This document shows, one piece after another, positions 28,952 to 49,285 of a stretch of 62,979 bases of DNA. The stretch's first letter is position 1. The number at the start of each line of letters is the position of its first letter. The position numbers and the translations under genes were made by a program. This DNA is from Oscillatoriales cyanobacterium M59_W2019_021 (GTDB lineage Bacteria; Cyanobacteriota; Cyanobacteriia; Cyanobacteriales; Geitlerinemataceae), in assembly GCA_015295945.1 (NCBI GenBank), contig DVED01000151.1:1-62979 (forward strand). The letters are read 5' to 3'. A model generated the notes under the pieces. It was not told where the DNA came from. It saw nothing but the letters and a program-made list of their open reading frames with translations, and made no database searches.

Positions 28952-31411
28952 TTACAATCCGCCCCCCGCAATCAAATAGGCGCTTCCGGCTGCCGTCAGG
29001 GCAACCAATAGCGTAGACCAAATGGGATGACCGTTTGCCGGGGTTTGCGAGCGATCGCGTTTGAAGGTATCCGCGTCGATCCAAACCGTTGCCCCGCGAC
29101 GCCACCATCCCGTGACGATCGCCCTCGACGCGATCCAATCGCTGGGACGAATTCCTTGGGGTAGAAGGTTTCCCGCGAATCCGAACTTAGAAGAATGGTG
29201 TAACTTGACCGCCAACTTCTCCGTTTGCACGATGAGATCTTGTCCCAACCAGTTGGCAATTCCCCGCCGTCCTAACAGTTTACCGGAAAACCGCACCGGA
29301 TAGCTGTCGAGGGGGAGCGATCGCGGTTGGGACAATCGTTCGAGTAAATTGGGTTCGACGGACAGCGCCGAGGGTTTGAGATCCCCGAAAAAGGGGTTGA
29401 TGCGGATCAGCGTACCGATACTGAACCCCGCCAGCATTAACCCGGGAATCAGCCACGCGCGATCGCGAAAAATCCAGGCAAATTGGCGCATATTGAGTTC
29501 CTCGCCCACCCAACCCACCAGGGTGAGGGCAATTCCCAAACCCAATCCGGCAGCCAAACCGAAGAACGGCGCCCCTTGCAGCCACATTCGGGAAGGTTCG
29601 GGTTGTCGGGGAGGTGTGGCAACTTCGAGATCGAACTCCGGTTCCAGCTTCCAGAAGCGGGCGCAGCGCGTCAACCCGGCGAGGCGTTCTCCCAAGAGGG
29701 GATGGGTATTATTGAGTGTCAACCAGTGGCGCTGGGGGTTGCCCAGATCCCAAGCGAATAAAGATTCGATGCCGAGGTGGGGGTAGGCGCTACCGATACT
29801 CAAAGCTTGACGGTGGGACACGGGCATCACCCCCTCGAAACTTTCCAGGAGATAGCTGGTTTGTTCCTGTTGTTGGATGTCGTCGGCGATGCCGATGGCG
29901 AGTTTGAGGAGGGCGCGGGCGAACCCGTTGGGGTTTCCGGTGGTGGCGGCGGCAAAGCGATCGCTTTCGGTAAGACGCTGCCGGGACAGAGGGAGGAGGG
30001 GCAGTCGCAGCAGCCAATAGAATCCGTAAGCGACGGCGGAAATGACGGCAAACGTCCAGGTGGCGATGGTTAAACTATAAAACTGATAGGCATTGCCCTG
30101 TCGTTTGTGAGCTTCTTCGTGCAGTCGATCGCCGAATTGGGCAGCTTTCCAATACAAAGTGTAGGGAATTTGCGTCAAAATTAAGCCCAAGGACATGACC
30201 GCCGCATCGCCGTAGAGGATGTGAGCGAGTTCGGCGGCGTAGAGGGTGGCAATTTCGTCGTCTTCGAGGCGATCGAGCAGTCCCTGACTGACGGCGATGC
30301 GGGCGGTTGCTGGGACGTGACCGTAGGTAAAGATAACCGGGGCGGCGTCGGGTAAGATTCCCAAGGTGGGGATGGAAATTTTCTTCTGGCGGCACACTTG
30401 GCGCAGTAACTTTGCCGCTTCCGGACTGGAATTACCTAGAGTTTTCAGGGACAAAGGTTGACAACCGTAGGCAAAGCGTAAGAGGGCATCCAACAGCCAG
30501 GGGGCGGCGATCGCGAATACTACCAGGACGATCGCCAAAAACCGCGTTAGATTGCCGTAAAAACCGGAAAAAGGAAGCGGGATGGGAAAAACGTAGAGGA
30601 TTTCGTTATATATATGGGTGAAGATTCCCACCGTTCCCAGTAAGAGGGCGAATAGGGCGAGGATCGTTACCAGTTGCAGCAATCGCAATTGCCCGAGGCG
30701 AGAGCCTTTGAGGGGTTTGGGGCGATCGGCGCGATCGGCGTTGCGCCACGTTTTCGGCGGCAGAGGAACCTCGGTGGGACTGGCATCGACTGGGTGCGGT
30801 TCGTCGCCATCCGATGCCGTGGCAGGCGGTTCGTCGAGACTTTCGATTTCTTCGTTTTCGGGAATGGGACGATACTCCTCTGGAGTCGCTGTGCGATCAA
30901 GAACGGACTCGCGGTTTTGCGGGGGTTGGTAGTCGTGTTGTATTTCTCGAGGTTTTTCTTCTAAAGGAACGAACCCCGTCGGTTGAGGAACGGAGGCAGA
31001 TAGATTTTGGGCATCTTCTTCAGAAAAAGGAACGAATCCCGTCGATGTAGGGGGGGGAGTCGAGAGATCTTCCTCAGAAAAGGGAACGAATCCTGTCGGT
31101 TGGGGGGGATGGGTTTCTGGTGAAACTCCCCATCGATCGAGCTTCTGAATTGCCCACTCTTTGGCTTTAGGGTTGGGACTTTGGCTCAGTTCCCGGCACA
31201 GGGCGATCGATCGATCTCTTTGCCCGACTTTATCGTACGCCGCAGCCAAACCGATTTGCGCTTGCAACAGGGCATCGGATGGGGGTAGCGTTGCTGCTAG
31301 GGGTTCCAATTGGGCGATCGCGGCTTGGGCATTTCCTTGTTTCAATGCCGCTAATCCCGCCTTCACCAATTTTAGGTGCGAACGAGTCGAGTTCTGGGGA
31401 ACCGATGCCAT
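28952..31411 (-). CDS. M48-type membrane protein lacking key zinc ligands
   Basis: This 819-residue protein has four parts. A TPR-like helical N-terminus covers about residues 10-90. A Pro/Glu-rich linker contains three copies of TGFVPFSEED or TGFVPLEEK. An M48 (HtpX/Ste24-like) domain has four or more transmembrane helices. The C-terminal ~250 residues have two more membrane segments and a soluble domain (RFSGKLLGRRGIANWLGQDL). The zinc motif HExxH is replaced by AELAH, and the downstream SRxxExxAD helix reads SRQRLTESD, so two of three metal ligands are gone. It is therefore probably a non-proteolytic membrane or chaperone-like homologue. GGGAG eight bases before ATG 31411 supports that start over 31441. 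No partner gene is obvious. Confidence 0.75.
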   Translation of the reverse strand: MASVPQNSTRSHLKLVKAGLAALKQGNAQAAIAQLEPLAATLPPSDALLQAQIGLAAAYDKVGQRDRSIALCRELSQSPNPKAKEWAIQKLDRWGVSPETHPPQPTGFVPFSEEDLSTPPPTSTGFVPFSEEDAQNLSASVPQPTGFVPLEEKPREIQHDYQPPQNRESVLDRTATPEEYRPIPENEEIESLDEPPATASDGDEPHPVDASPTEVPLPPKTWRNADRADRPKPLKGSRLGQLRLLQLVTILALFALLLGTVGIFTHIYNEILYVFPIPLPFSGFYGNLTRFLAIVLVVFAIAAPWLLDALLRFAYGCQPLSLKTLGNSSPEAAKLLRQVCRQKKISIPTLGILPDAAPVIFTYGHVPATARIAVSQGLLDRLEDDEIATLYAAELAHILYGDAAVMSLGLILTQIPYTLYWKAAQFGDRLHEEAHKRQGNAYQFYSLTIATWTFAVISAVAYGFYWLLRLPLLPLSRQRLTESDRFAAATTGNPNGFARALLKLAIGIADDIQQQEQTSYLLESFEGVMPVSHRQALSIGSAYPHLGIESLFAWDLGNPQRHWLTLNNTHPLLGERLAGLTRCARFWKLEPEFDLEVATPPRQPEPSRMWLQGAPFFGLAAGLGLGIALTLVGWVGEELNMRQFAWIFRDRAWLIPGLMLAGFSIGTLIRINPFFGDLKPSALSVEPNLLERLSQPRSLPLDSYPVRFSGKLLGRRGIANWLGQDLIVQTEKLAVKLHHSSKFGFAGNLLPQGIRPSDWIASRAIVTGWWRRGATVWIDADTFKRDRSQTPANGHPIWSTLLVALTAAGSAYLIAGGGL

Positions 31412-31598
31412 AGAAACACTCCCAACGCTAGTCTTTTCCAAGATAGCAATTCCCGGACTGTCTCGATTGTGCGCGCCCGAGGCGGAATGAAACCGTCCTG
31501 CTGGTATTTTACAGCGAAGGGTAAGGCGAAGACGGGATGTCTTGTCAGAAGTTCATCCCGTCGAAAGTTTGAAGATTGGGAACGCTCGGCCTCTAAAC

Positions 31599-32507: not shown

Positions 32508-35500
32508 TTAGATTATAACTTGACCTGAAATCTCACCGTTGACAACCACTTTATTGACAAATGGTTGGGCAATGCGACCACGGTGTTGAAGATGCCACAT
32601 GGCTCGCAATGGAAACTTTAAAGGATTTTCTGTCAGTTCCACATTATCTCCATCCCCAGCACCAAAGTCATCATAAATCACAAAGTCTAGATTGGTCGAG
32701 TAGTTCATGACATTAGAGCTATTAACTGACGTGATTTCTGCATTGAATTGATTTAGGTAAAGTTCTGTTCCTTGAGTTCCCCCAAGGGTTCCCCATAATA
32801 TTTTTCTGTCATCATTTCCAAATATTCCAGGAAATTCAAAATTGATTGAATACAAATCGAGATTAAAATTCACATCATTTAAATTGATGGAATTCGTAAA
32901 ATCAATCTGAGATTGCAGCTTTTGCTGAAATGTCAGAGCTATATCATCAAACATCTGTATAAAATCATCATCAGACTCAACGAGTTGAGATAGCTCGCTA
33001 CCATGAGAGTGTTCCCATAAGTCTCCAGAGCCAGCCAAAAAACGATCTGCCATCTGAGTTGCTAAATCTCCAGGAATAGGAAGAATGCCAGCCCAAAAAT
33101 CTGCTTCAAATCCCCAGTGACCAAAAAGCGAACTGAGATAAGGCTCTCGATCTCCCGAGACAAAATCAGAACCTGTACCCCAGCCAGGATTAGAACGTTG
33201 TCCAATGAGTAACGGTACTTCTGAAAGAGGCTCGATGTCAATTAAAACCGTTTCTGGGTCATTCCCATGTTCATCTCCAGGTTGTTCATCATTTATTGGA
33301 GCTTCATTGCCAGAATCTTGAGAACCATCATCAGGTGGATTGGTGTTCCCGTCACTGGAATTCCCATCGGGCAAATAGACAATCGTACCGCGTGAAATTT
33401 GGGCAGCTTCAGCACTGGTATATGTCGTACCATCGGCTTTGCGAATTTCTGTCCACCGGAAGCCACTGCCCAACTCCCGTTCGGCAATCTCCCAGAGGGT
33501 ATCGTCGAGAGATCCCAAATGACCGAACTCGTAGGCACGCATTCCATCCGTCGAACCATTGGCGGGAGGATTGGAGACGGGGTTGCCGTCACCAGTTTCG
33601 TAAGTGACAGGCAGATACACCGACTGTCCAATTTGTAATAATTTCGCTTCTTCAGAAGTAAATGTCTCGCCATTGGGAGATTTCATAATTTCGGGCCAGC
33701 GATTGGCATCGCCTAGATACCGCTGTGCGATCGCCGAGAGAGTGTCTCCGGGTTTGATGATGTACTCAGCCTGTTCGCCGGGAATAGCAGGTTGAGAACC
33801 CCCTGGAGTCTCCGGATCGATCGGGGCGAAGGAGTTTTGATTTTGAAGTTCCCAGAATGACTTGACCGGGTTGAGAGTCGCATTTCCAACCACATTTTGG
33901 TCGGCACTTTGGGATGGACTGTAGCTCGGTCCCGGCTGCACTTCTAAATGCAAGTGGCTGCGAAAACCGATCGTCCCGATCGTCTGTCCGGTCTCGATTC
34001 GACCACTTGGAACCGCAACTGTTCCCAGATGACCGTAAATCCAAAGTTTACCGTCGTCACCTTGAACGCCCATGAAGTAATCGCCACTAATACCCTGGAT
34101 GGTGACAACATTTCCCCCAACGGCTACCTTAACGGCATCACCAGGATCTGCATCTAAATCGATTCCAGAGTGCCACTTACCAATCCCTTGGCGATAACCC
34201 GGATCGAGCAAATATCCGGCGGTGACTAGACCGCGTTTACCTAAAACGGCATTGGACAAGTCCGTATAGATATCGCGAATGGGCTCAGGAGTGAGATGAC
34301 GCTCGTCTCGGAAGTCCGGCCAACCATAGTCAAACCGAGTATTATCTCCGGTGTAATCATTCCACTGGGCATCGGAGAGCGATGCTAAATCGGGATAGTA
34401 TGCGGGGTCGGGAGTCGGTTCGAGAGTCGGGTCGGGAGTCGGTTCGGGTGAGATAGTTGGTGGCTCACCTGTAGTGATTGCTGCTGAAATCCACAAATCA
34501 GTTTCAGCAATCCGATACCAGCGATCATCTTCTCCTAAACCGGGATAGGAAATGAATTCGCCTACAGTCCAAGCATCATAGTCGAATTGCTGGTTGTAAT
34601 CTACTGTTTCAACAATGGTGTAATCTGTACTCGGTCCCGAACGTAGATTAGCACCAATTGTGGCAGTGACTTGACCGCTAAAACTACCTAGGTAAGTCTC
34701 AACGGCTCGTTCACCTGGAATGAAGATGTCTTCTCCACTCCAAGTATCGGGAATGAAGCTCATCGGTGGCGTATACTCTTCCGGAGCCGTCACCTTCGCT
34801 AACTTCACTGCGGCATCAATGTTTAACAATCCAGATCCCGTTTCTGCATCCCAGTTCGTCGTGCTTAAGTCCGTAGATGTATCTTTGAGGATTTGAAGGA
34901 CTTGGCGATAATTCAAACCCGGATTCGCCGCCCATACTAGCGATGCTCCACCGGTTACGTGTGCGGCAGCAATGGAGCTTCCTGCCATTGTGCCAATACC
35001 AGTACCGACTGTGGAGAAAATCGGGTTGTCTGTGGTTCCACCTTCTGCCACCAGATCCAGACCGTAGCCGTAACTCGAGTAATCGGCGCGGATAAATGCT
35101 TCAGAAGCCCGAATGGAGGGATCGACATCTAAACGCTTGGCAGCACCAACAGTGGCGATGTTGTCGAATTCTTGCCCGGCCTGTCCGAGGGCAGACATGA
35201 CACCGTTATCGTTCCCGGCTGCCACCACCAGTAAAACGTTATTCTGGCGAGCATATTCGATCGCCGCACGTTCTTTGGGGGTCAATTCATAACGGGTCGC
35301 AATACTGCCATCGGGGTTAGTTTGGATTAAATCCTGACTGAGGTTGATAATTCCATTGGGTTGTTCGGATTCCCGAATTCGATCGACTAACGCAATTAAT
35401 GATTCTGTCCACTCCCCAGAACCAATGGCGCGTTCTATAACGATCGGCGCGTCGGGATTAATTCCATCGATACCAATACCGTTATCTTGTTGAGCCGCAA

Positions 35501-37292
35501 TAATTCCCACAACATGGGTTCCGTGTTGGCTACCTTCTCCCGGTTGCAGTAAAGGGTCGGCGTCGCCATCCACTCGGTCTGTTCCCGAGGTGATGTTACC
35601 GTAGTCGATGTCGGGGTTGTTGGCTGCCAAACCCGTATCGAGGATGCCAACCAGGGGTTGCTTGGCTTGGGGAAAGTCGAACCGTTCTGGCGGACTGCTA
35701 GAAATGCTTGGAACTTCGGCAACTTCGGGAAGTGCTTCTACAGTCTCGTTGTCTGCGGGACTTTCTTCCTCAGTGGGAAGAGTCGTGGTGTCTTCCACTA
35801 CTTCGGACTCTTCAGAAGTCGTGTCGGTGGGTGCGTCAACGACTATCTCGTCTTCTTCTGTATCGCTGCTATTGTCGCTAACCACCTCATCCTCGCGGAT
35901 AATCGTGGTTTCTAATCCCGCTTCGGCGGTGTCATCGTCTCGAGTGATGGGAGTGTTTAATTCGGCATCATCGCTGGGTAAATCTTCAATTTCGTTATCG
36001 TCCAAGGGTTCGTCGAGAGGAGAATTGATAGGCGCAGGCGAGAGATAAGGATTGCCGTAGTCGATTAACGCTTGTCCCATATCCTTCGACCAAAAACCCT
36101 GTTTCGGATCGATAACATCGGATAATAACGGAGTTTGACCTTCAATACCGCGCATTTGCAGGACGATATCGTTGAAACTCTTGTCGGAATTCCGATCGAG
36201 TCGTAAATCTTCAAAGGCAAACAAATTGCCATCTGCACCACCTTCGGAAACTTGCACGAACTGGGTGTGTTTTCCGGGATTAAGGTCGGAAACGGAGAAC
36301 AGGAGGCGCCGCGATCGATTTGTGGCAGATGTATCTAATGTTTCTTGGAAGGTGCGGTTGGGAACCATTACCACCATAAAATTCTCGCCGGTATTCATCT
36401 GGAAGGATTTGACACCTAAGTAAGTTCCAGAATTACGATCGGGTCCCCATTTGGAATTGCTAAACCGAGCGCCTTCGGTAACATCGTCGATAACAATATG
36501 ACCGAGTTCGGAATCACTTAATGCTCGACGGGAAACTTCGGCGTTAAACTCAGAAAAGTCGCCATCTGTGGGGAAAAAGTCTTCGAGTCCCACCGTACTG
36601 ACGATCGCCACTTGTGACTCGAATTTGCCATGGTCGTAGTTATAGTCGATGAGAACTTTGCCATCGCTACCGACGGTGTAGATACCGGGTGTGCTGTTGG
36701 TAAGTTCGAGAACGGGAACGGGTTCGATTTCGGGGATGGGATCGACAACAGCTTCTACATCATCGGCGATCGCATCTTCCTCAGTTTCTTCAGATTCAGA
36801 GGTGTTGGAAACGTTAGTCTCAGCCGCTTCTACGTCTTCCTCAAGGGTTTCATCTTCTTCTACACTTTTCTCTTCCTCCTCGTCAGTTTCGGTCAAATCT
36901 GCCTGAGTTTCGACGGTGGTATCGTCAATTTCTGGCAGGTTATCTGTCTCATCTGAGGTGGAGTCGATCGCTTCACTGTCGGCATTGAGTAGAGGATCGT
37001 CTTCTTCTATTTCCAGATCTGGGGAATCTGTCGTCTCGATCGCCTCTAAACTAGTATCGGTTTCGGATAACTCATCTAAATTTTCGGAAACGACAGGCGA
37101 TTCTACAACATTTCCAGAAGAATCGATAACGGGATTTTCAATAACCGTAAATGTCGGTTGACTCAGCGGATCGTTCGATCCAGGTTGTGGCAGTGGATCG
37201 TCGGCAAGGCGATCCTCTAGTGGCGGAAGTCCCGCAACTAGAGGATCGGATTCTATAGAGGAGTTGAGAATAATTGGATTAGAAAGTTCCAT
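32508..37292 (-). CDS. Giant modular protein: DUF4114, subtilase, SH3, M23, two LysM
   Basis: The 1594 residues divide into these regions (positions approximate): an acidic low-complexity N-terminus (1-205); DUF4114 with FAFEDLRLDRNSDKSFNDIV (212-376); a second acidic linker (400-535); an S8 subtilase with intact triad signals GILDTGL, GTHVVGI and GSSIAAAHV (541-832); an SH3-like segment ATIGANLRSGPSTDY (about 870-930); a Pro/Glu/Asp-rich spacer; an LytM/M23 endopeptidase with HSGIDLD and HLHLEV (1037-1120); two LysM modules (1176-1227, 1254-1307); and a C-terminal beta-rich region. There is no N-terminal signal peptide. The acidic composition and calcium-binding-type DUF4114 suggest type I-like export. 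Likely an extracellular wall-binding protease; target unknown. It is transcribed alone. Confidence 0.88.
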   Translation of the reverse strand: MELSNPIILNSSIESDPLVAGLPPLEDRLADDPLPQPGSNDPLSQPTFTVIENPVIDSSGNVVESPVVSENLDELSETDTSLEAIETTDSPDLEIEEDDPLLNADSEAIDSTSDETDNLPEIDDTTVETQADLTETDEEEEKSVEEDETLEEDVEAAETNVSNTSESEETEEDAIADDVEAVVDPIPEIEPVPVLELTNSTPGIYTVGSDGKVLIDYNYDHGKFESQVAIVSTVGLEDFFPTDGDFSEFNAEVSRRALSDSELGHIVIDDVTEGARFSNSKWGPDRNSGTYLGVKSFQMNTGENFMVVMVPNRTFQETLDTSATNRSRRLLFSVSDLNPGKHTQFVQVSEGGADGNLFAFEDLRLDRNSDKSFNDIVLQMRGIEGQTPLLSDVIDPKQGFWSKDMGQALIDYGNPYLSPAPINSPLDEPLDDNEIEDLPSDDAELNTPITRDDDTAEAGLETTIIREDEVVSDNSSDTEEDEIVVDAPTDTTSEESEVVEDTTTLPTEEESPADNETVEALPEVAEVPSISSSPPERFDFPQAKQPLVGILDTGLAANNPDIDYGNITSGTDRVDGDADPLLQPGEGSQHGTHVVGIIAAQQDNGIGIDGINPDAPIVIERAIGSGEWTESLIALVDRIRESEQPNGIINLSQDLIQTNPDGSIATRYELTPKERAAIEYARQNNVLLVVAAGNDNGVMSALGQAGQEFDNIATVGAAKRLDVDPSIRASEAFIRADYSSYGYGLDLVAEGGTTDNPIFSTVGTGIGTMAGSSIAAAHVTGGASLVWAANPGLNYRQVLQILKDTSTDLSTTNWDAETGSGLLNIDAAVKLAKVTAPEEYTPPMSFIPDTWSGEDIFIPGERAVETYLGSFSGQVTATIGANLRSGPSTDYTIVETVDYNQQFDYDAWTVGEFISYPGLGEDDRWYRIAETDLWISAAITTGEPPTISPEPTPDPTLEPTPDPAYYPDLASLSDAQWNDYTGDNTRFDYGWPDFRDERHLTPEPIRDIYTDLSNAVLGKRGLVTAGYLLDPGYRQGIGKWHSGIDLDADPGDAVKVAVGGNVVTIQGISGDYFMGVQGDDGKLWIYGHLGTVAVPSGRIETGQTIGTIGFRSHLHLEVQPGPSYSPSQSADQNVVGNATLNPVKSFWELQNQNSFAPIDPETPGGSQPAIPGEQAEYIIKPGDTLSAIAQRYLGDANRWPEIMKSPNGETFTSEEAKLLQIGQSVYLPVTYETGDGNPVSNPPANGSTDGMRAYEFGHLGSLDDTLWEIAERELGSGFRWTEIRKADGTTYTSAEAAQISRGTIVYLPDGNSSDGNTNPPDDGSQDSGNEAPINDEQPGDEHGNDPETVLIDIEPLSEVPLLIGQRSNPGWGTGSDFVSGDREPYLSSLFGHWGFEADFWAGILPIPGDLATQMADRFLAGSGDLWEHSHGSELSQLVESDDDFIQMFDDIALTFQQKLQSQIDFTNSINLNDVNFNLDLYSINFEFPGIFGNDDRKILWGTLGGTQGTELYLNQFNAEITSVNSSNVMNYSTNLDFVIYDDFGAGDGDNVELTENPLKFPLRAMWHLQHRGRIAQPFVNKVVVNGEISGQVII

Positions 37293-41989: not shown

Positions 41990-43120
41990 TCAATTCCCAA
42001 CGACCAAGCGAGCTTTTTCCAGGAGCGATCGCAAGACGGTTTCGCGTTGGGTGATAATATCCGCTCTCACGTCCATTCCCGGTTTGAGAGCGCATTGACG
42101 ATCGCCATGACCTAACGCATGGTTTTGCGGTTGAATCGTGACTTCGTAATAGGGAGCAACACCCGCGCTATTATTAGCAGGAGTGGCGATATCCGGGGCG
42201 ATCGCCCGCACGGTTCCCCCCAATAAACCATACTCCGTGTAAGGACACGCCGACACCCGCAATTGCACCGTTTGTCCGAGTTGCACCTTGCCAATATCCC
42301 GGACGGGAACCCCTGCTTGAATCGAGAGCGAGTCCGTCGAGACAATTTCTGCCAATCGATCGCCCACTTGCACCAGTTGACCGGAACCTTGCAGATTTAA
42401 CTGCCGAATGGTTCCCGTCGTAGGGGTGCGAATGCCGCCGGAATCTAACTGCGCGGAAATCGCCGCCAACGCCGCAGATTCGGTTTGGACTTGACGTTGC
42501 AATTCGTCTTGCTGCTTGAGGGCAGCCAGCCATTGAGTTTGCAACTGTCCGGCAGTGACGGGAGAGGTGCTTTCCAGCTTCTCCAACGCCACGGCAACGC
42601 TATAAACGGCATCTTGTTCGGTTCCGGTTAACGTTCGCCCCGCCAACTTGAAAATTTGCTGTCGCAGGCTTTCGATTTGGGCATTGGCAGCGTTGAGTTG
42701 CTGTTGATACCCCTGAAGTGCGGTTTTATGCTGCTGCTGTTGCGTTGTGAGAGCGCGAATTTGCGGGCTGTCTTGGGTTTCCAGATACATTAAGATGTCT
42801 CCGGCACTCACCGCTTGATTTTCCGCCACCTCGATACTGCTGACGATTCCTTGACGATCGGATTGTACGATGTGTACGGGGGAATGCACGCGCCCAGCCG
42901 CTTTGACGGTAACGTCGTATTTAACGATCGCCGACAGAATCCCCGCAATTCCTAGCATTCCCACTAAAAATAGCCCGCCAACGGTTGCCCAACGACTGAC
43001 CGGGGGCAGCAGGTCTTCGCTGTTGAGAATGGGAAGTGGCTTCAAATCCGGTGGTTCCGACATAATCGCAAACTCGGGCGGGACTGCTATCATGCCTTTA
43101 CAAACTTCTAGGGCGATCAT
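41990..43120 (-). CDS. HlyD-family secretion adaptor
   Basis: This is a periplasmic adaptor (membrane fusion) protein. It has one N-terminal transmembrane helix (VGGLFLVGMLGIAGILSAI), a biotinyl-lipoyl half-motif (VHSPVHIVQSDRQGIVSSIEV), a coiled-coil hairpin of about 150 residues, the returning half-motif TPTTGTIRQLNLQGSGQLVQ and beta-barrel end domains. About 376 residues from ATG 43120. ATG 43093 and 43063 are also possible, and an open frame reaches 43204 from TTG. Adaptors of this size work with ABC exporters, including those that cleave double-glycine leaders. It is divergent from four peptide genes carrying such leaders, so they are its likely cargo. The ABC subunit is not in the window. 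Confidence 0.85.
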   Translation of the reverse strand: MIALEVCKGMIAVPPEFAIMSEPPDLKPLPILNSEDLLPPVSRWATVGGLFLVGMLGIAGILSAIVKYDVTVKAAGRVHSPVHIVQSDRQGIVSSIEVAENQAVSAGDILMYLETQDSPQIRALTTQQQQHKTALQGYQQQLNAANAQIESLRQQIFKLAGRTLTGTEQDAVYSVAVALEKLESTSPVTAGQLQTQWLAALKQQDELQRQVQTESAALAAISAQLDSGGIRTPTTGTIRQLNLQGSGQLVQVGDRLAEIVSTDSLSIQAGVPVRDIGKVQLGQTVQLRVSACPYTEYGLLGGTVRAIAPDIATPANNSAGVAPYYEVTIQPQNHALGHGDRQCALKPGMDVRADIITQRETVLRSLLEKARLVVGN

Positions 43121-43204
43121 CCGGATTTTCTCTGTTGTTTTAGATTTATGGATCGAGTGTCGCGCTTGAGCCAGTTGGAGAATGCCGCTTCTCGGGAATC
43201 CCAA

Positions 43205-43589: not shown

Positions 43590-43799
43590 ATGCAAACGAA
43601 TTCTCAAGATCGGCTTTTTGTGGAATTAACGGCAGAAGAATCTGCAACCGTTAATGGCGCTTACTACTACCACAATCCCTATGCCTTCAACCCCGTCTAC
43701 TATGATGGATATATGGCAGGGTATGGTATCGGTTACGGGCAGGGTCAAGCTAGCTCGATCGTGCAAACCACCCATGTAAATGTCATTATCGAAGACTAA
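43590..43799 (+). CDS. Tyr/Gly-rich peptide with double-glycine-type leader, paralogue 1
   Basis: This 69-residue peptide has leader MQTNSQDRLFVELTAEESAT then VNGA. The core (about 45 residues) begins YYYHNPYAFNP, is rich in Tyr and Gly, and ends IVQTTHVNVIIED. The leader fits the LxxELxxEExxxVxGA/G pattern cleaved after GA or GG by peptidase-containing ABC exporters. GGAG at 43580-43583 precedes ATG 43590; in-frame starts at 43575 and 43578 would read through it. No modification enzyme is adjacent. Function unknown: an antimicrobial, adhesive or signalling peptide are all possible. Confidence 0.75.
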   Translation: MQTNSQDRLFVELTAEESATVNGAYYYHNPYAFNPVYYDGYMAGYGIGYGQGQASSIVQTTHVNVIIED

Positions 43800-43815
43800 G
43801 CAATGGTGTTTTTTT

Positions 43816-43846
43816 TAGGGAACAATCGCGAGTCGATCGTTCCCTA
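43816..43846 (+). terminator. Hairpin after peptide gene 1
   Basis: TAGGGAAC and GTTCCCTA form an 8-bp stem, 17 bases after the stop of paralogue 1. A T8 run precedes rather than follows the stem, so direction and strength are uncertain. Confidence 0.45.
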
Positions 43847-44431
43847 GATTTGATCGCGAGTTTGAGTTTTCTCGTTCGGCAAGATCGCTCTCAATATCTG
43901 TGAATTCAGCAGACTTTGAAAATGAACGTTTTTTCCTCAATCGCATAACAAAATTTGAGATTTTGTTATCCTTCGTTTGGATGTCAACCACATCTTGCAA
44001 GCAATCGCAGATTAGCGACCGCTCGCTCGACGTTCGGAACTGCGATCAATGAAAGATTTGTAGTTCCAAATTTCATATGCCAGTCATACCGATCGAAATA
44101 GGTATCGCCGTGTACATGAAGCCGGCATCTCTCGCTGTTTTCCAAAAAAGTTTGCAGGTAGTACAGCTATAAAATAATCTTCCATATAGACAGAAATAAG
44201 GTTTTTCTGAAATAGGAATTGGGTTCCGACTTTTGAATGATCGGAACTATTGCTATGAAACTTCATTCTTAATATTACAGTAATAGAATTTTTCAAGAAA
44301 AGAATTTAAAAATTTCCGGACTGTATTTTGAACCCTAGAATAATGAAGTAGATAACACGGGAAAGTGACCTGTGAATCTTCTACGAATCGTTAGATTCAA
44401 GAACTCTAAGAGACTAAAGGAGTCAACTATT
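43847..44431. promoter_or_regulatory. Spacer and promoter region of peptide gene 2
   Basis: This AT-rich spacer of nearly 600 bases has no supported gene. GAATAATGAAGTAG at 44338-44351 lies 94 bases before ATG 44432 and recurs at the same distance before paralogue 3. Confidence 0.45.
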
Positions 44432-44617
44432 ATGCAAAAGCAAAAACTGTTTGTCGAACTGAACGAAAAAGAAGCGGCTACCGTCAATGGAGCTCACCAC
44501 TACTATCCTTGCTACTGGGGTTATCCCGTTTACTACGGTGGTGGATATGGCTACGGTTCCGGTTCTGCCAGCAATGTCACCCAAACCACCAATGTGAACG
44601 TCGTTTACAACGACTAG
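44432..44617 (+). CDS. Tyr/Gly-rich peptide with double-glycine-type leader, paralogue 2
   Basis: This 61-residue peptide has leader MQKQKLFVELNEKEAATVNGA. The predicted core starts HHYYPCYWGYPVYYGGGY and ends SNVTQTTNVNVVYND. It is the shortest of the four and has one Cys and one Trp in the core. AAAGGAGTC at 44417-44425 serves ATG 44432; the frame extending back to 44372 is unrelated to the family. The shared C-terminal TQTTNVNVV with paralogues 1 and 3 suggests the tail has a conserved role such as assembly or export. Confidence 0.78.
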   Translation: MQKQKLFVELNEKEAATVNGAHHYYPCYWGYPVYYGGGYGYGSGSASNVTQTTNVNVVYND

Positions 44618-44753
44618 TTTCTGGCTAGTGATGGATTGAAGGCACACGACGATCGAGTTTTGAATGCGAATGAGACTTTCTCAATTTCGCCTTAAACAGG
44701 CTCGATCGCGTGTTAAAAAATTAAAGTTTCGTCATTTCATTCTACATAAAAAC

Positions 44754-44790
44754 ATTCCTGAGACGATTGCTTGGCAATTATCTCAGGAAT
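44754..44790 (+). terminator. Intrinsic terminator after peptide gene 2
   Basis: ATTCCTGAGA pairs with TCTCAGGAAT, and within the loop ATTGC pairs with GCAAT, followed by TTTTAG. It is a strong two-tier hairpin about 135 bases after the stop, separating paralogues 2 and 3 into different transcripts. Confidence 0.75.
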
Positions 44791-44930
44791 TTTAGTGTCA
44801 TTTAATGAGTAGAAAATCGCAATGTAAATTTGCAAGTCGGTAAGAGAGCGATACTCCTTCATGAGTCGCTGCGCGATCGAAAAAGTTCTAGATTTTCCGC
44901 TTAACATTCCGGATAGTCTGTCAATTCTCC

Positions 44931-44944
44931 GAATAATGAAGTAG
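44931..44944 (+). promoter_or_regulatory. Shared GAATAATGAAGTAG element
   Basis: This 14-base string is identical at 44338-44351 and 44931-44944. Each copy begins exactly 94 bases before the ATG of its peptide gene, while the sequence between has largely diverged. A common promoter part or regulator site is the simplest reading. Confidence 0.5.
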
Positions 44945-45024
44945 CTGATGCGAAAACCATTCACAAAAGCAATTCTCGAATTCAATTGATTCGAGATTCC
45001 CCTTGATTGAATAAGGAGTCAACA

Positions 45025-45267
45025 ATGGAAACCAACACTCAAACTCAACTGTTCGTGGAACTGAGCGCTGACGAATCTGCGACCGTCAACGGCGCTCACC
45101 GCTACTACTACGCTCCCCGCTACTACTCCCCCTGCCGCTACGGCGGATACGGTGGTGGCTACTACGGTGGCGGCTACGGATACGGTGGTGGCGGCTACGG
45201 CGGTGGCTACGGCTCCGGTGGCTCGGTGACCCAAACCACGAACGTCAACGTTGTGATTGAAGACTAG
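45025..45267 (+). CDS. Tyr/Gly-rich peptide with double-glycine-type leader, paralogue 3
   Basis: This 80-residue peptide, the longest of the four, has leader METNTQTQLFVELSADESAT then VNGA. The core HRYYYAPRYYSPCRYGG is followed by a run of GGY/GGG repeats and SVTQTTNVNVVIED. The central 30 residues are almost only Gly and Tyr, so the core looks like a glycine-rich structural or amyloid-prone segment. AAGGAGTC at 45013-45020 serves ATG 45025. Codons here are GC-rich (GGC TAC), unlike paralogue 1. Confidence 0.78.
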   Translation: METNTQTQLFVELSADESATVNGAHRYYYAPRYYSPCRYGGYGGGYYGGGYGYGGGGYGGGYGSGGSVTQTTNVNVVIED

Positions 45268-45419
45268 TCAAACGAATGATGCTAGCGGAGCGAAACCTTG
45301 AGTCTGCGCGGCTGTGAGATCGGGAGCAATCCGATCAGCGCATCTCGTTGTTTCTAATCTGCGACTAGCACCAAACGTTTCACAGTTACAGATTTGTCCG
45401 AATACTCGCTTCGGAGTCT

Positions 45420-45450
45420 GCACCCATAGAGTATTCACCCCTATGGGTGC
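45420..45450 (+). terminator. Hairpin between peptide genes 3 and 4
   Basis: GCACCCATAG and CTATGGGTGC form a perfect 10-bp stem with an 11-base loop, 30 bases before paralogue 4. There is no T-run. It could terminate the paralogue 3 transcript or control paralogue 4. Confidence 0.5.
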
Positions 45451-45480
45451 CTCCCCATATCATACCAAATCGGCTTCGTC

Positions 45481-45705
45481 ATGAAACCCACGGAAGATTG
45501 CAAACCCAACTCAACCGCTGACAATCCCTTGTTTGTCGAGCTATCGGCTGAGGAATCGAATCAGATTCGAGGAGCTTACTACGGGTACTATAACCCCGTG
45601 GCAACGCCCTACTACGAACCCAGTTTTTATTACAGACCGAATCCGTATCCTCAGTACCATTACACCTACTACAACGTCGCCAATCCGGCGTATCTCCTGT
45701 CTTAA
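45481..45705 (+). CDS. Tyr-rich peptide with double-glycine-type leader, paralogue 4
   Basis: This 74-residue divergent member of the peptide family has a longer N-terminus (MKPTEDCKPNSTADN), then LFVELSAEESNQIRGA. The core is YYGYYNPVATPYYEPSFYYR with PNPYPQYHYTYYNV, about one third Tyr with many Pro, and little Gly. The TQTTNVNVV tail is absent. The ribosome binding site is poor. The leader conservation marks it as cargo of the same route; the core change suggests a different or specialised product. Confidence 0.68.
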   Translation: MKPTEDCKPNSTADNPLFVELSAEESNQIRGAYYGYYNPVATPYYEPSFYYRPNPYPQYHYTYYNVANPAYLLS

Positions 45706-45938: not shown

Positions 45939-46388
45939 ATGCCACCAAAAGCTCACCTAGAACCCCACCTCTCTACCGAGCAAATCAAGAGTCGCTATCG
46001 GCAAGCCAAAGATACGACTGAATCTCGGAGATGGCACCTGCTGTCTCTGGTCGCCCAAGACTGGACGATCAAACAAGCGGCTGAAGTGGTAGGTTTGAAC
46101 TACGATTACGCCAAGCAAATCATTCAGCGCTACAACCAAGAAGGTCCGGCTTCGACGATCAACCACAGCAAGAAAAAACGAGTTTCGTCTCGCTCTCTGC
46201 TGACCCCCGAACAGCAAGCCGAACTCGCCCGCGCGCTCAAACATCCCGCGCCGGATGGGGAAGCCTGGTCCGGACCGAAGGTCGCTCATTGGATTGCCCA
46301 GAAAACCGGACTCAAGCGAGTTTGGCCCCAGCGAGGTTGGGACTACCTCCGTCGTTTGGGAAATGCCCCCATCGACAAAAAAAACTGA
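45939..46388 (+). CDS. Free-standing IS630-type helix-turn-helix protein
   Basis: This 149-residue protein equals the DNA-binding half of IS630/Tc1-like transposases. It has a first HTH (WTIKQAAEVVGLNYDYAKQI), a linker and a winged second HTH ending VWPQRGWDYLRRLG. The DDE catalytic domain is absent; the frame ends GNAPIDKKN and no DDE sequence was found in the following 400 bases. It may be a truncated transposase or a DNA-binding protein derived from one. Its frame is intact and codon use normal. Confidence 0.7.
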   Translation: MPPKAHLEPHLSTEQIKSRYRQAKDTTESRRWHLLSLVAQDWTIKQAAEVVGLNYDYAKQIIQRYNQEGPASTINHSKKKRVSSRSLLTPEQQAELARALKHPAPDGEAWSGPKVAHWIAQKTGLKRVWPQRGWDYLRRLGNAPIDKKN

Positions 46389-46826: not shown

Positions 46827-47555
46827 ATGAAACTCGCATTATCGATTTCCGCTCTGGCTGCCAGCACGATCGCCTATGGAATTAGCATGGCAGCGCCTGC
46901 CGCCGCTCAAACCCCCAGCGCCACTCAAACGGTGAACTTAGAAAAAGTTTGCCACGAGGATGTCTGCGTGGAAGTTCAAGTCGAACAGTCGGTGAATGCT
47001 TCTGAAGACAATCCAGGAGTGGTTTCCCACGTCGAACCGGAGTTTTGCGGGGAAGTACCTTGCGAAACTGAGGAATATCCCGTTTATGAAGAAGAATATC
47101 CCAGTGCTTATCCGGTCGTCGATCCCATCAGCTACGAAGGCGGAGATACCTTCTTCTGCGGTAGCAACGATTATGGTACGCCGACCACTTACGTCAACAG
47201 CGGCGGACAATCTTTGCCCCTGATTAGCTGGGTGTCTCACTACTTCTCCGGTTCGGGTTACGATCCCGTGACTCGTTGCGAGCAAGTGACCGAACGGTTC
47301 AATCGTTTCTATCAAGACGGTCGGTTGAACTTTATCACCACGGGATTTGTCAATCGCCAGCCGGTGGTGTGCGTCTCCAGCCATATCGGCGGACCTTGCA
47401 CCGACGTTCTGTTCACGCTGAAGCCGGGAGAAGATGCCGCTCAAGCCATTCAACAATTGTTTGACGTGCGCGTGGGAGCAGACGGTCCGCTGTACGAAAG
47501 CGGTTCTCGGGTGTACTTCGACCTCAACGAGCGTTTGAATGAGTTGAGCCGATAA
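46827..47555 (+). CDS. Secreted COP23-domain protein
   Basis: A signal peptide (LALSISALAASTIAYGISMAAPAAAQ, cleavage after AAA) is followed by an acidic Cys-containing region and a COP23-type domain: TFFCGSND, LISWVSHYFSGSGYDPVTRC, VTERFNRFYQDGRLNFITTG, QPVVCVSS and CTDVLFTLKPGEDA. COP23 was described as a circadian-oscillating protein in Cyanothece; its function is unknown. The even number of Cys suggests disulfides in the periplasm or outside. It is followed 125 bases later, same strand, by a trypsin-TPR gene. Confidence 0.75.
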   Translation: MKLALSISALAASTIAYGISMAAPAAAQTPSATQTVNLEKVCHEDVCVEVQVEQSVNASEDNPGVVSHVEPEFCGEVPCETEEYPVYEEEYPSAYPVVDPISYEGGDTFFCGSNDYGTPTTYVNSGGQSLPLISWVSHYFSGSGYDPVTRCEQVTERFNRFYQDGRLNFITTGFVNRQPVVCVSSHIGGPCTDVLFTLKPGEDAAQAIQQLFDVRVGADGPLYESGSRVYFDLNERLNELSR

Positions 47556-47680: not shown

Positions 47681-49285
47681 ATGAGTGGTTTTTCTAAATA
47701 TCCAGTAGTCTTGTTAGGCGGTTGTTTGGCGATCGTCTCTTATGCGGAAACAGCGCAGGCGTTGGTTGCCGACGAGGTGCGCCAGATTGCTGAGGAGGTG
47801 ACGGTTCGCATCGATGGGTTGAATCCGGGTTCTGGGGTTTTGGTGGCGCGTGAAGGCGATACCTATTGGGTTCTGACTGCCGAACACGTGGTGGCGACGG
47901 AAGATGAGTATTATATTATCGCGCCGGATGGGGCGGAGTATCCCTTGGATTACAGTACCGTAGAGAAGCTGCCGGGGGTGGATTTGGCGCTGTTGCGGTT
48001 TACGAGCGATCGTGTCAGCGACTCCCTGCGGGAGTATCGCCCGTATCGTACTGCTACCTTGGGAAATTACGCGGTGAATGCTAACGATGCTTACGTCTTT
48101 GCTTACGGTTGGGATGCGGACAACCGCCAACCGTTAATGACGGCGGGACAGATTATCGCCCGTGATTTTGCGTTGGGGGTGACGCGCAATCCGATCGATC
48201 GCGGCTATAAGCTCTTTTATACCAACGTTACGGAAAAGGGTATGAGCGGCGGTCCGATTTTGGATACTGACGGACGGCTAATTGGCATTCACGGACAATC
48301 AGACGGACAGGAATTGTACGACGAGACATCGGGTCGATTGCTGCGGGTGAAGTTGGGATTCAGCGCGGGAATTCCCATTTCGGGAGGGTTGCGGGCGCTC
48401 GATCGATCGGGTTTGTCTCCGGCGTTGCAAATCGAAAATTCGGCTCCCGCTCCCTTATCTCAACAGAGTTGGGCATCGATTACTCCGTATTTAGGGGTTT
48501 CTCGTCCCCCGGAAAATGCCAGTGCGGTGGATTGGTCGAATTGGGGCAATCATTTATATCGCACCGGACAGTTTATGGAGGCCCTGCGGGCGTTCGATCG
48601 CTCGATTGGGTTGCAGTCAGATTTCTATCCGGCGTGGTATCAGCGCGGTAATGTATTGTATGCGCTGGGGGACGAGATTGCGGCGATCGGATCGTTCGAT
48701 CGCACGGTGGATATCAAACCGGATTTTTATTGGGCGTGGCGAGATCGCGGGGCGTTGCTATCGGCGATGGGGGATGTGGAAGCAGCGATGGAATCTTTTG
48801 ATCGAGCGGTGGAAATTCAGCCGGACGACCAGGTAGTATGGTACATGCGGGGGAATTTGCTGACGCAGAATTTCGCCCGGTACGAAGAGGCGCTGGCATC
48901 GTACGATCGCGCGTTGGATGTCAGTCCGGAGTTTGCCCCGGCGTGGATGGGACGGGGGAAAGCGCTATCGGAAATGGGACGCTACGATGAGGCGATGCGG
49001 GCGCTGGATCGATCAATCGAACTCGATCCGGAATCGGCAACAGCGCGGATTTTGCAAGGAACGGTGTTTCAAGAAATGGAAAAACCGCAACAGGCTTTAG
49101 CCTCCTTCGATCGGGCGCTGGCATTGAGTCCGGAAGACGCGCAGTTATGGGCGATTAAAGGTCAATTACTGGTGGATTTGGGGCGGCGTTCGGAGGCGAT
49201 CGATGCGTTGAGTCAAGCGCTGCGATTGCAACCGAATAACCCGGAAATTCGATCGCTGTTAGCGCGTTTGGGCGGTTCCCGTTAA
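47681..49285 (+). CDS. Trypsin-like serine protease fused to TPR repeats
   Basis: The 534 residues comprise a signal peptide (VVLLGGCLAIVSYAETAQA), an S1 trypsin/HhoA-like domain (about residues 30-235) with catalytic His in LTAEHVV, Asp in GVDLALL and Ser in GMSGGP, and seven TPR units from about residue 275 to the end. GAGG at 47670-47673 precedes ATG 47681. The architecture suggests a periplasmic protease whose TPR arm binds partners. Proximity to the COP23 gene suggests shared function. A strong terminator follows. Confidence 0.88.
   Translation: MSGFSKYPVVLLGGCLAIVSYAETAQALVADEVRQIAEEVTVRIDGLNPGSGVLVAREGDTYWVLTAEHVVATEDEYYIIAPDGAEYPLDYSTVEKLPGVDLALLRFTSDRVSDSLREYRPYRTATLGNYAVNANDAYVFAYGWDADNRQPLMTAGQIIARDFALGVTRNPIDRGYKLFYTNVTEKGMSGGPILDTDGRLIGIHGQSDGQELYDETSGRLLRVKLGFSAGIPISGGLRALDRSGLSPALQIENSAPAPLSQQSWASITPYLGVSRPPENASAVDWSNWGNHLYRTGQFMEALRAFDRSIGLQSDFYPAWYQRGNVLYALGDEIAAIGSFDRTVDIKPDFYWAWRDRGALLSAMGDVEAAMESFDRAVEIQPDDQVVWYMRGNLLTQNFARYEEALASYDRALDVSPEFAPAWMGRGKALSEMGRYDEAMRALDRSIELDPESATARILQGTVFQEMEKPQQALASFDRALALSPEDAQLWAIKGQLLVDLGRRSEAIDALSQALRLQPNNPEIRSLLARLGGSR

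Follow-up and report, generated by a model that had tools for sequence, protein, structure and literature searches.

Four tandem genes with a shared leader

The window, i.e., the whole stretch of 62,979 nucleotides that was analyzed, had been described in an initial annotation as carrying four tandem genes with a shared leader and Tyr-rich cores. All four open reading frames (P1 to P4) were found there on the plus strand (Table 1). Their leaders are of the type LFVELxxxExxx(V/I)xGA and are followed by cores of 40 to 56 residues with a Tyr content of 20-33%. As the initial annotation had also noted, P1 to P3 have a 14-residue C-terminal tail in common. This tail is absent from P4, which shares only the leader with the other three and has a Tyr/Pro core of its own. 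Over the aligned part, P3 is 61% identical to P1 and 70% to P2.

Table 1. Features of the window and the exporter gene on contig C47
Feature	Position	Strand	Remarks
P1 precursor	43590-43799	+	69 aa; leader 43590-43661, ends VNG-A; core 43662-43796, 20% Tyr
P1 C-terminal tail SIVQTTHVNVIIED	43755-43796	+	tail type found again in several clades
P2 precursor	44432-44617	+	61 aa; leader 44432-44494; core 44495-44614, 23% Tyr
P2 C-terminal tail NVTQTTNVNVVYND	44573-44614	+	same tail type as P1
P3 precursor	45025-45267	+	80 aa; leader 45025-45096; core 45097-45264, 34% Gly, 23% Tyr
P3 C-terminal tail SVTQTTNVNVVIED	45223-45264	+	same tail type as P1
P4 precursor	45481-45705	+	74 aa; leader 45481-45576, ends IRG-A; core 45577-45702, 33% Tyr, 17% Pro
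P4 C-terminal tail HYTYYNVANPAYLLS	45658-45702	+	HYTYYxVANPxYLL(G) kept in two sister genomes
HlyD-type periplasmic adaptor (membrane fusion protein)	41990-43204	-	divergent from peptide genes; N-terminal start uncertain
IS630-type transposase part	45939-46388	+	NF033545, 8e-13; just 3' of P4
COP23 (circadian oscillating protein)	46827-47555	+	downstream of peptides
Trypsin-TPR protein	47681-49285	+	downstream of peptides
S8-type serine protease	32508-37292	-	1594 aa; LysM-like match
M48-type metalloprotease	28952-31441	-	829 aa
Short-type C39-ABC exporter	C47:32187-34328		sole short-type C39-ABC of the genome

The leader motif LF[VT]EL..[EDK]E[SA]..[VI].G[AG] gave four matches in the six frames of the window, compared with none in 100 dinucleotide-preserving shuffles. 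Differences at codon positions 1, 2 and 3 number 27, 17 and 55 among the four leaders, and 10, 4 and 19 among the tails of P1 to P3. Since they fall mostly at third positions, they show selection on the protein. The intergenic gaps of ∼210 to 630 bp indicate that the genes are tandem paralogues and not a tight operon. A Shine-Dalgarno-like GGAG is located 5' of P1 to P3 but not of P4, and alignment of the four upstream regions revealed a single common piece, a short one before P2 and P3 (GAATAATGAAGTAG). The predicted net charge of the four cores lies between -3 and +1. An AlphaFold model of P3 built with eight sequences, which is of low confidence (pLDDT 48) and cannot show self-assembly, consists of a short leader helix and an unfolded core; this is what would be expected for such leaders and disordered cores and proves nothing.

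Export genes recur beside the peptides

The neighboring gene on the opposite strand indeed encodes a HlyD-type adaptor (PF13437, 1.7e-21; TIGR01843, 7e-44), as the initial annotation had claimed. In a phylogenetic tree, this HlyD groups with the peptide-linked HlyDs of relatives (support 100/99), apart from the five other HlyDs of the genome that could be placed.

To describe the neighborhood, 42 peptide loci from 14 clades (roughly genera, according to our own grouping) were compared. A C39-ABC exporter gene is present in 35 of these loci (13 clades) and a hlyD gene likewise in 35 (11 clades), which supports the assignment of the leaders to the double-glycine type handled by peptidase-containing ABC exporters. 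Homologues thus almost always lie near export genes, the opposite of what the initial annotation had named as evidence against its reading. The usual order in relatives is HlyD divergent from one to four peptide genes, followed by the C39-ABC exporter on the same strand as the peptides. No neighbor other than ABC and HlyD occurs in more than four clades, the runners-up being a protein kinase, the pilin-like Pilin_GH, an NB-ARC protein, an HTH protein and housekeeping genes. Among proteins of at least 110 aa, no modification or immunity gene recurs beside the 42 loci, in line with the earlier remark that a modification enzyme is missing. The linkage of such an enzyme to the precursor that would mark a RiPP was accordingly not found, and only ABC and HlyD recur widely.

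In the window's family, three genomes carry the peptides, and in each of them the COP23 and trypsin-TPR genes come next, with 52 and 64% identity to their counterparts in the sister genome G004. They were rejected as parts of the system because they were seen in this family only. The IS630-type transposase part next to P4 has a 76% identical copy at the same place in G004 (L035:4002-4457) and sits roughly where other lineages have the exporter. Outside the order, a Pilin_GH (type IV pilin-like) gene is found near the exporter in three clades (L152:9870-10472, L034:5421-5981, and relatives in f48).

The putative exporter is encoded elsewhere in the genome

The window genome contains four C39-peptidase matches, none of them beside the peptide genes. 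The short-type exporter on contig C47 shares ∼64% identity with exporters that are peptide-linked in relatives, compared with ∼34% for the long-type one, and groups in the exporter tree with the exporters of sister genomes. It has the C39 motif with Cys, His and Asp (QHSETDCGAACL...NHWVVL...VDPG). A TolC-type outer-membrane protein is encoded on contig C52.

In the sister genome G004, an exporter 74% identical to that of C47 is also located on a different contig from the peptides. A second sister genome, G002, shows the order exporter, TPR gene, HlyD, peptides, and the TPR gene preceding the C47 exporter is homologous to the one in G002 (41% identity over 153 aa, 4e-35). Because this homologous TPR gene lies beside the C47 exporter, it seems that the system has come apart in the lineage of the window, with TPR gene and exporter on one side and HlyD and peptides on the other.

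Among 293 genomes, the exporter is present in 66 of 66 that carry the peptides and in 78 of the 227 others (Fisher 2e-25, a value that overstates the case because related genomes are not independent). Strong peptide matches (E < 1e-7, read from tables) occur in 34 genomes, and in 28 of these only a few kilobases separate exporter and peptides, the exceptions including the window genome and G004. In genus g92, six to seven Tyr-rich GG peptides are encoded in arrays (L101, L104) with neither HlyD nor exporter in the region covered. Another contig of these fragmented assemblies carries the exporter, so splitting may have occurred more than once.

A family of Tyr-rich precursors

Of 293 genomes belonging to the same order, 66 had related precursors according to profile searches (E 1e-3), the weaker precursors matching by the leader only; further ones were found in other orders of the class. 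The relatives include a Leptolyngbya MAG and an uncultured cyanobacterium MAG. Two candidates were dropped: the match in G124 (L045), a chance match containing stops, and the peptides of G083 (L044), which are a different kind of GG peptide.

Composition and conservation were determined for 75 distinct Tyr-rich precursors from 38 loci. Their cores, 23 to 57 aa long, consist of 25% Tyr, 18% Arg and 11% Gly. Together, Tyr and Arg make up 43%, while Ile, Leu and Met account for 1.8%, and Leu, Ile, Met and Lys are almost lacking. The ratio of Arg to Lys is 570:19 in the cores as opposed to 5:81 in the leaders, and the mean core charge is +6.4. The cleavage motif is GG in 55 precursors, GA in 19 and GS in one. 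That leaders are more conserved than cores, a further expectation of the initial annotation, was borne out by mean identities of 63 and 39%, respectively. Given the 33% obtained for shuffled cores, the cores are conserved mainly in composition. The 14-residue tail S(V/I)(T/N)Q(T/S)(T/V)NVN(V/I)x(I/Y)(E/N/D)D characterizes one subgroup, found in five of 14 clades within and beyond the order.

No Pfam or NCBIfam family reached its cut-off for P1 to P4 or for 22 relatives, and P3 had no match in plasmid records. The open-access literature yielded no paper describing Tyr-rich double-glycine peptides of cyanobacteria, which is weak evidence of absence. The Tyr-rich substrates form a family that is widespread in cyanobacteria, and this family and the detached exporter appear to be the parts not described before.

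Comparison with EbfG1-4/PteB and with bacteriocin families

In Synechococcus elongatus PCC 7942, efficient EbfG1-4 secretion and biofilm formation both depend on the catalytic Cys of PteB, and EbfG4 is cut after GA (PMC4997328). EbfG1-3 form amyloid, while EbfG4 is found on the cell surface and in the matrix (PMC9981879); PteB, HlyD and EbfE have been described as the cognate secretion system (PMC12647202). We located the S. elongatus locus with a pattern taken from the published EbfG peptides, namely TTYNPPSYPYPSYPK and SGYSIPTYPK after GG and LLQTANSVAAAIAK after GA. The gene order there is EbfG precursors, PteB, HlyD.

PteB and the C47 exporter are 54% identical across all 714 residues and belong to one clade (100/100); the window genome's two long-type C39 exporters, to which PteB is 32 and 29% identical, are placed outside it. 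A model of the peptide-linked HlyDs scores 345 bits with the window HlyD and 307 bits with that of S. elongatus, the two being 32% identical (5e-53). The window genome also contains four PmbA/TldD-family genes, whose link to EbfE rests on a Pfam family assumed from the phrase 'microcin processing peptidase'.

Like EbfG1-4, the window peptides are encoded by four tandem small genes with GG/GA leaders, and they share with that system an orthologous short C39-ABC exporter and its HlyD partner; the GA-leader substrates lie beside HlyD here and beside HlyD and ABC in relatives. The cores of EbfG1 and EbfG2 also begin with Tyr/Pro-rich stretches (as in TTYNPPSYPYPSYPK). However, P1 to P4 gave no significant match to EbfG1 and EbfG2, the EbfG precursors do not match the leader pattern of the Tyr-rich family, and apart from the general leader type there is no homology in either the mature cores or the leader sequences. 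EbfG1 and EbfG2 have Ser- and Ala-rich cores with amyloid hot spots and 7-8% Tyr, whereas those of P1 to P4 contain 20-33%. Moreover, in the window genome exporter and peptides are encoded at separate places, unlike in EbfG/PteB. Judged from these sequences, the window system would work like EbfG/PteB at the export step, with peptides that fall outside the EbfG protein family.

A related exporter next to PteB in the tree (L044:9906-10873) lies beside HlyD and other GG peptides, with cores like GLIAFNIAIASKLTYQENGALVIASGNAIGFGNQAGVAIVQTNLA. Since the related exporter clade is found beside such other peptide kinds too, exporter orthology does not fix substrate function.

Group III of the putative bacteriocin clusters of cyanobacteria, as catalogued by Wang, Fewer and Sivonen (2011; PMC3140520), likewise combines a short-type C39-ABC exporter and HlyD with several small precursors whose leaders are of the double-glycine type. 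The text of that survey assumes a bacteriocin function and speaks of cores in which Gly, Cys, Ser and Thr are abundant; it mentions no Tyr-rich family, although the 150 precursors of 'other' type may include some relatives of the present one. CTB family bacteriocins (NCBIfam NF038167) have a similar GG leader. Their match to P3 is weak (12.9 bits, with a cut-off of 32) and covers the leader only, leaving the core unmatched, and the window genome has no members of this family. The proposal that the window holds an undescribed system appears to hold for the Tyr-rich substrates and the detached exporter but not for the export machinery, which is orthologous to the known PteB and HlyD and occurs in layouts similar to those catalogued in 2011.

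Proposed function

We propose that P1 to P4 are precursors, the products being small peptides with a structural role outside the cell. Their leader, LFVELxxEExxxVNGA, would be recognized by the C39 peptidase domain of the short-type exporter on contig C47. This exporter would cut after Gly-Ala and drive the core through a tripartite channel that it would form with the HlyD of the window and the TolC-type protein encoded on C52. The freed cores would be disordered Tyr-rich polymers, either unmodified or modified by general enzymes only. After release, Tyr-Tyr and Tyr-Arg contacts and the beta-strand-like tail would make them stick to one another and to the cell surface, giving them a matrix or adhesive function like that of EbfG1-4 in S. 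elongatus.

The steps of this model differ in strength. Homology, conserved linkage and co-occurrence support the leader type and the partnership of exporter and HlyD, and make export with leader removal by C39-ABC, HlyD and TolC very probable; for cleavage at GA in P1 to P4 we rely on inference. An extracellular structural or adhesive role is somewhat favored by the orthology of the exporter, the sticker-like composition and the lack of recurrent immunity or modification genes. Because the cores are not homologous to EbfG and the leaders differ, this matrix role is drawn by analogy. Surface placement or self-assembly of the products is plausible, and the C-terminal tail may, by inference only, be a self-association strand. 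Binding of metals by the product, which the initial annotation had also suggested, found no support. Taken as a whole, secretion of EbfG-like matrix proteins or adhesins with new Tyr-rich substrates is the best explanation, and one that we consider reasonably probable.

The peptides could instead be unmodified class II-type bacteriocins or microcins whose cores, cationic in many relatives, disrupt the membranes of competitors. Leader and exporter type are those of the clusters catalogued as putative bacteriocins of cyanobacteria in the survey (PMC3140520), the leaders weakly match the CTB bacteriocin (0.009) and Bacteriocin_IIc (0.09) families, and Arg-rich members, with a mean charge of +6.4, could be antimicrobial. 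Nevertheless, the absence of any recurrent immunity-like gene among the neighboring proteins of at least 110 aa, the nearly neutral window cores, poor in the aliphatics usual in membrane-active peptides, and the fact that matrix proteins are the substrates of PteB, the closest exporter studied by experiment, make this function unlikely. It is similarly doubtful, and slightly more so, that the peptides are RiPP precursors whose Tyr residues are cross-linked, oxidized or sulfated by an enzyme encoded elsewhere to give a bioactive product or pigment. The very high Tyr content and the frequency of GG leaders among RiPPs would fit, and distant modification enzymes are possible, since nine cyanobacterial lanM genes lie far from other biosynthetic genes according to the same survey (PMC3140520); yet no enzyme recurs beside the 42 loci, and the cores vary too much, in both sequence and length, to give one fixed product. 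A role as pheromones, cut and exported for cell-cell communication, is highly improbable, for although C39-type exporters carry GG-peptide signals in other bacteria (PMC7018657, PMC7595303), the present cores are long, of low complexity and conserved mainly in composition, and no receptor or kinase recurs in more than four clades.

The preferred reading, matrix or adhesin secretion, can be extended to the whole class only tentatively: disordered Tyr/Arg/Gly 'sticker' peptides secreted via PteB-type exporters might condense or cross-link in filamentous cyanobacteria that form mats, giving rise to their adhesive matrix or sheath. Double-glycine peptides are frequent among the orphan gene products of cyanobacteria, and the usual label for them is bacteriocin. 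The present family ties a large and recognizable class of them to orthologs of PteB, the one cyanobacterial exporter in the literature consulted that is shown to secrete matrix proteins. It provides a concrete candidate, open to testing, for what proteins contribute to the matrix in filamentous cyanobacteria, and also a bacterial source of short polymers that are rich in Tyr and Arg and possibly adhesive. If the sticker-peptide reading is true, many so-called bacteriocin clusters of cyanobacteria would be matrix-building systems.
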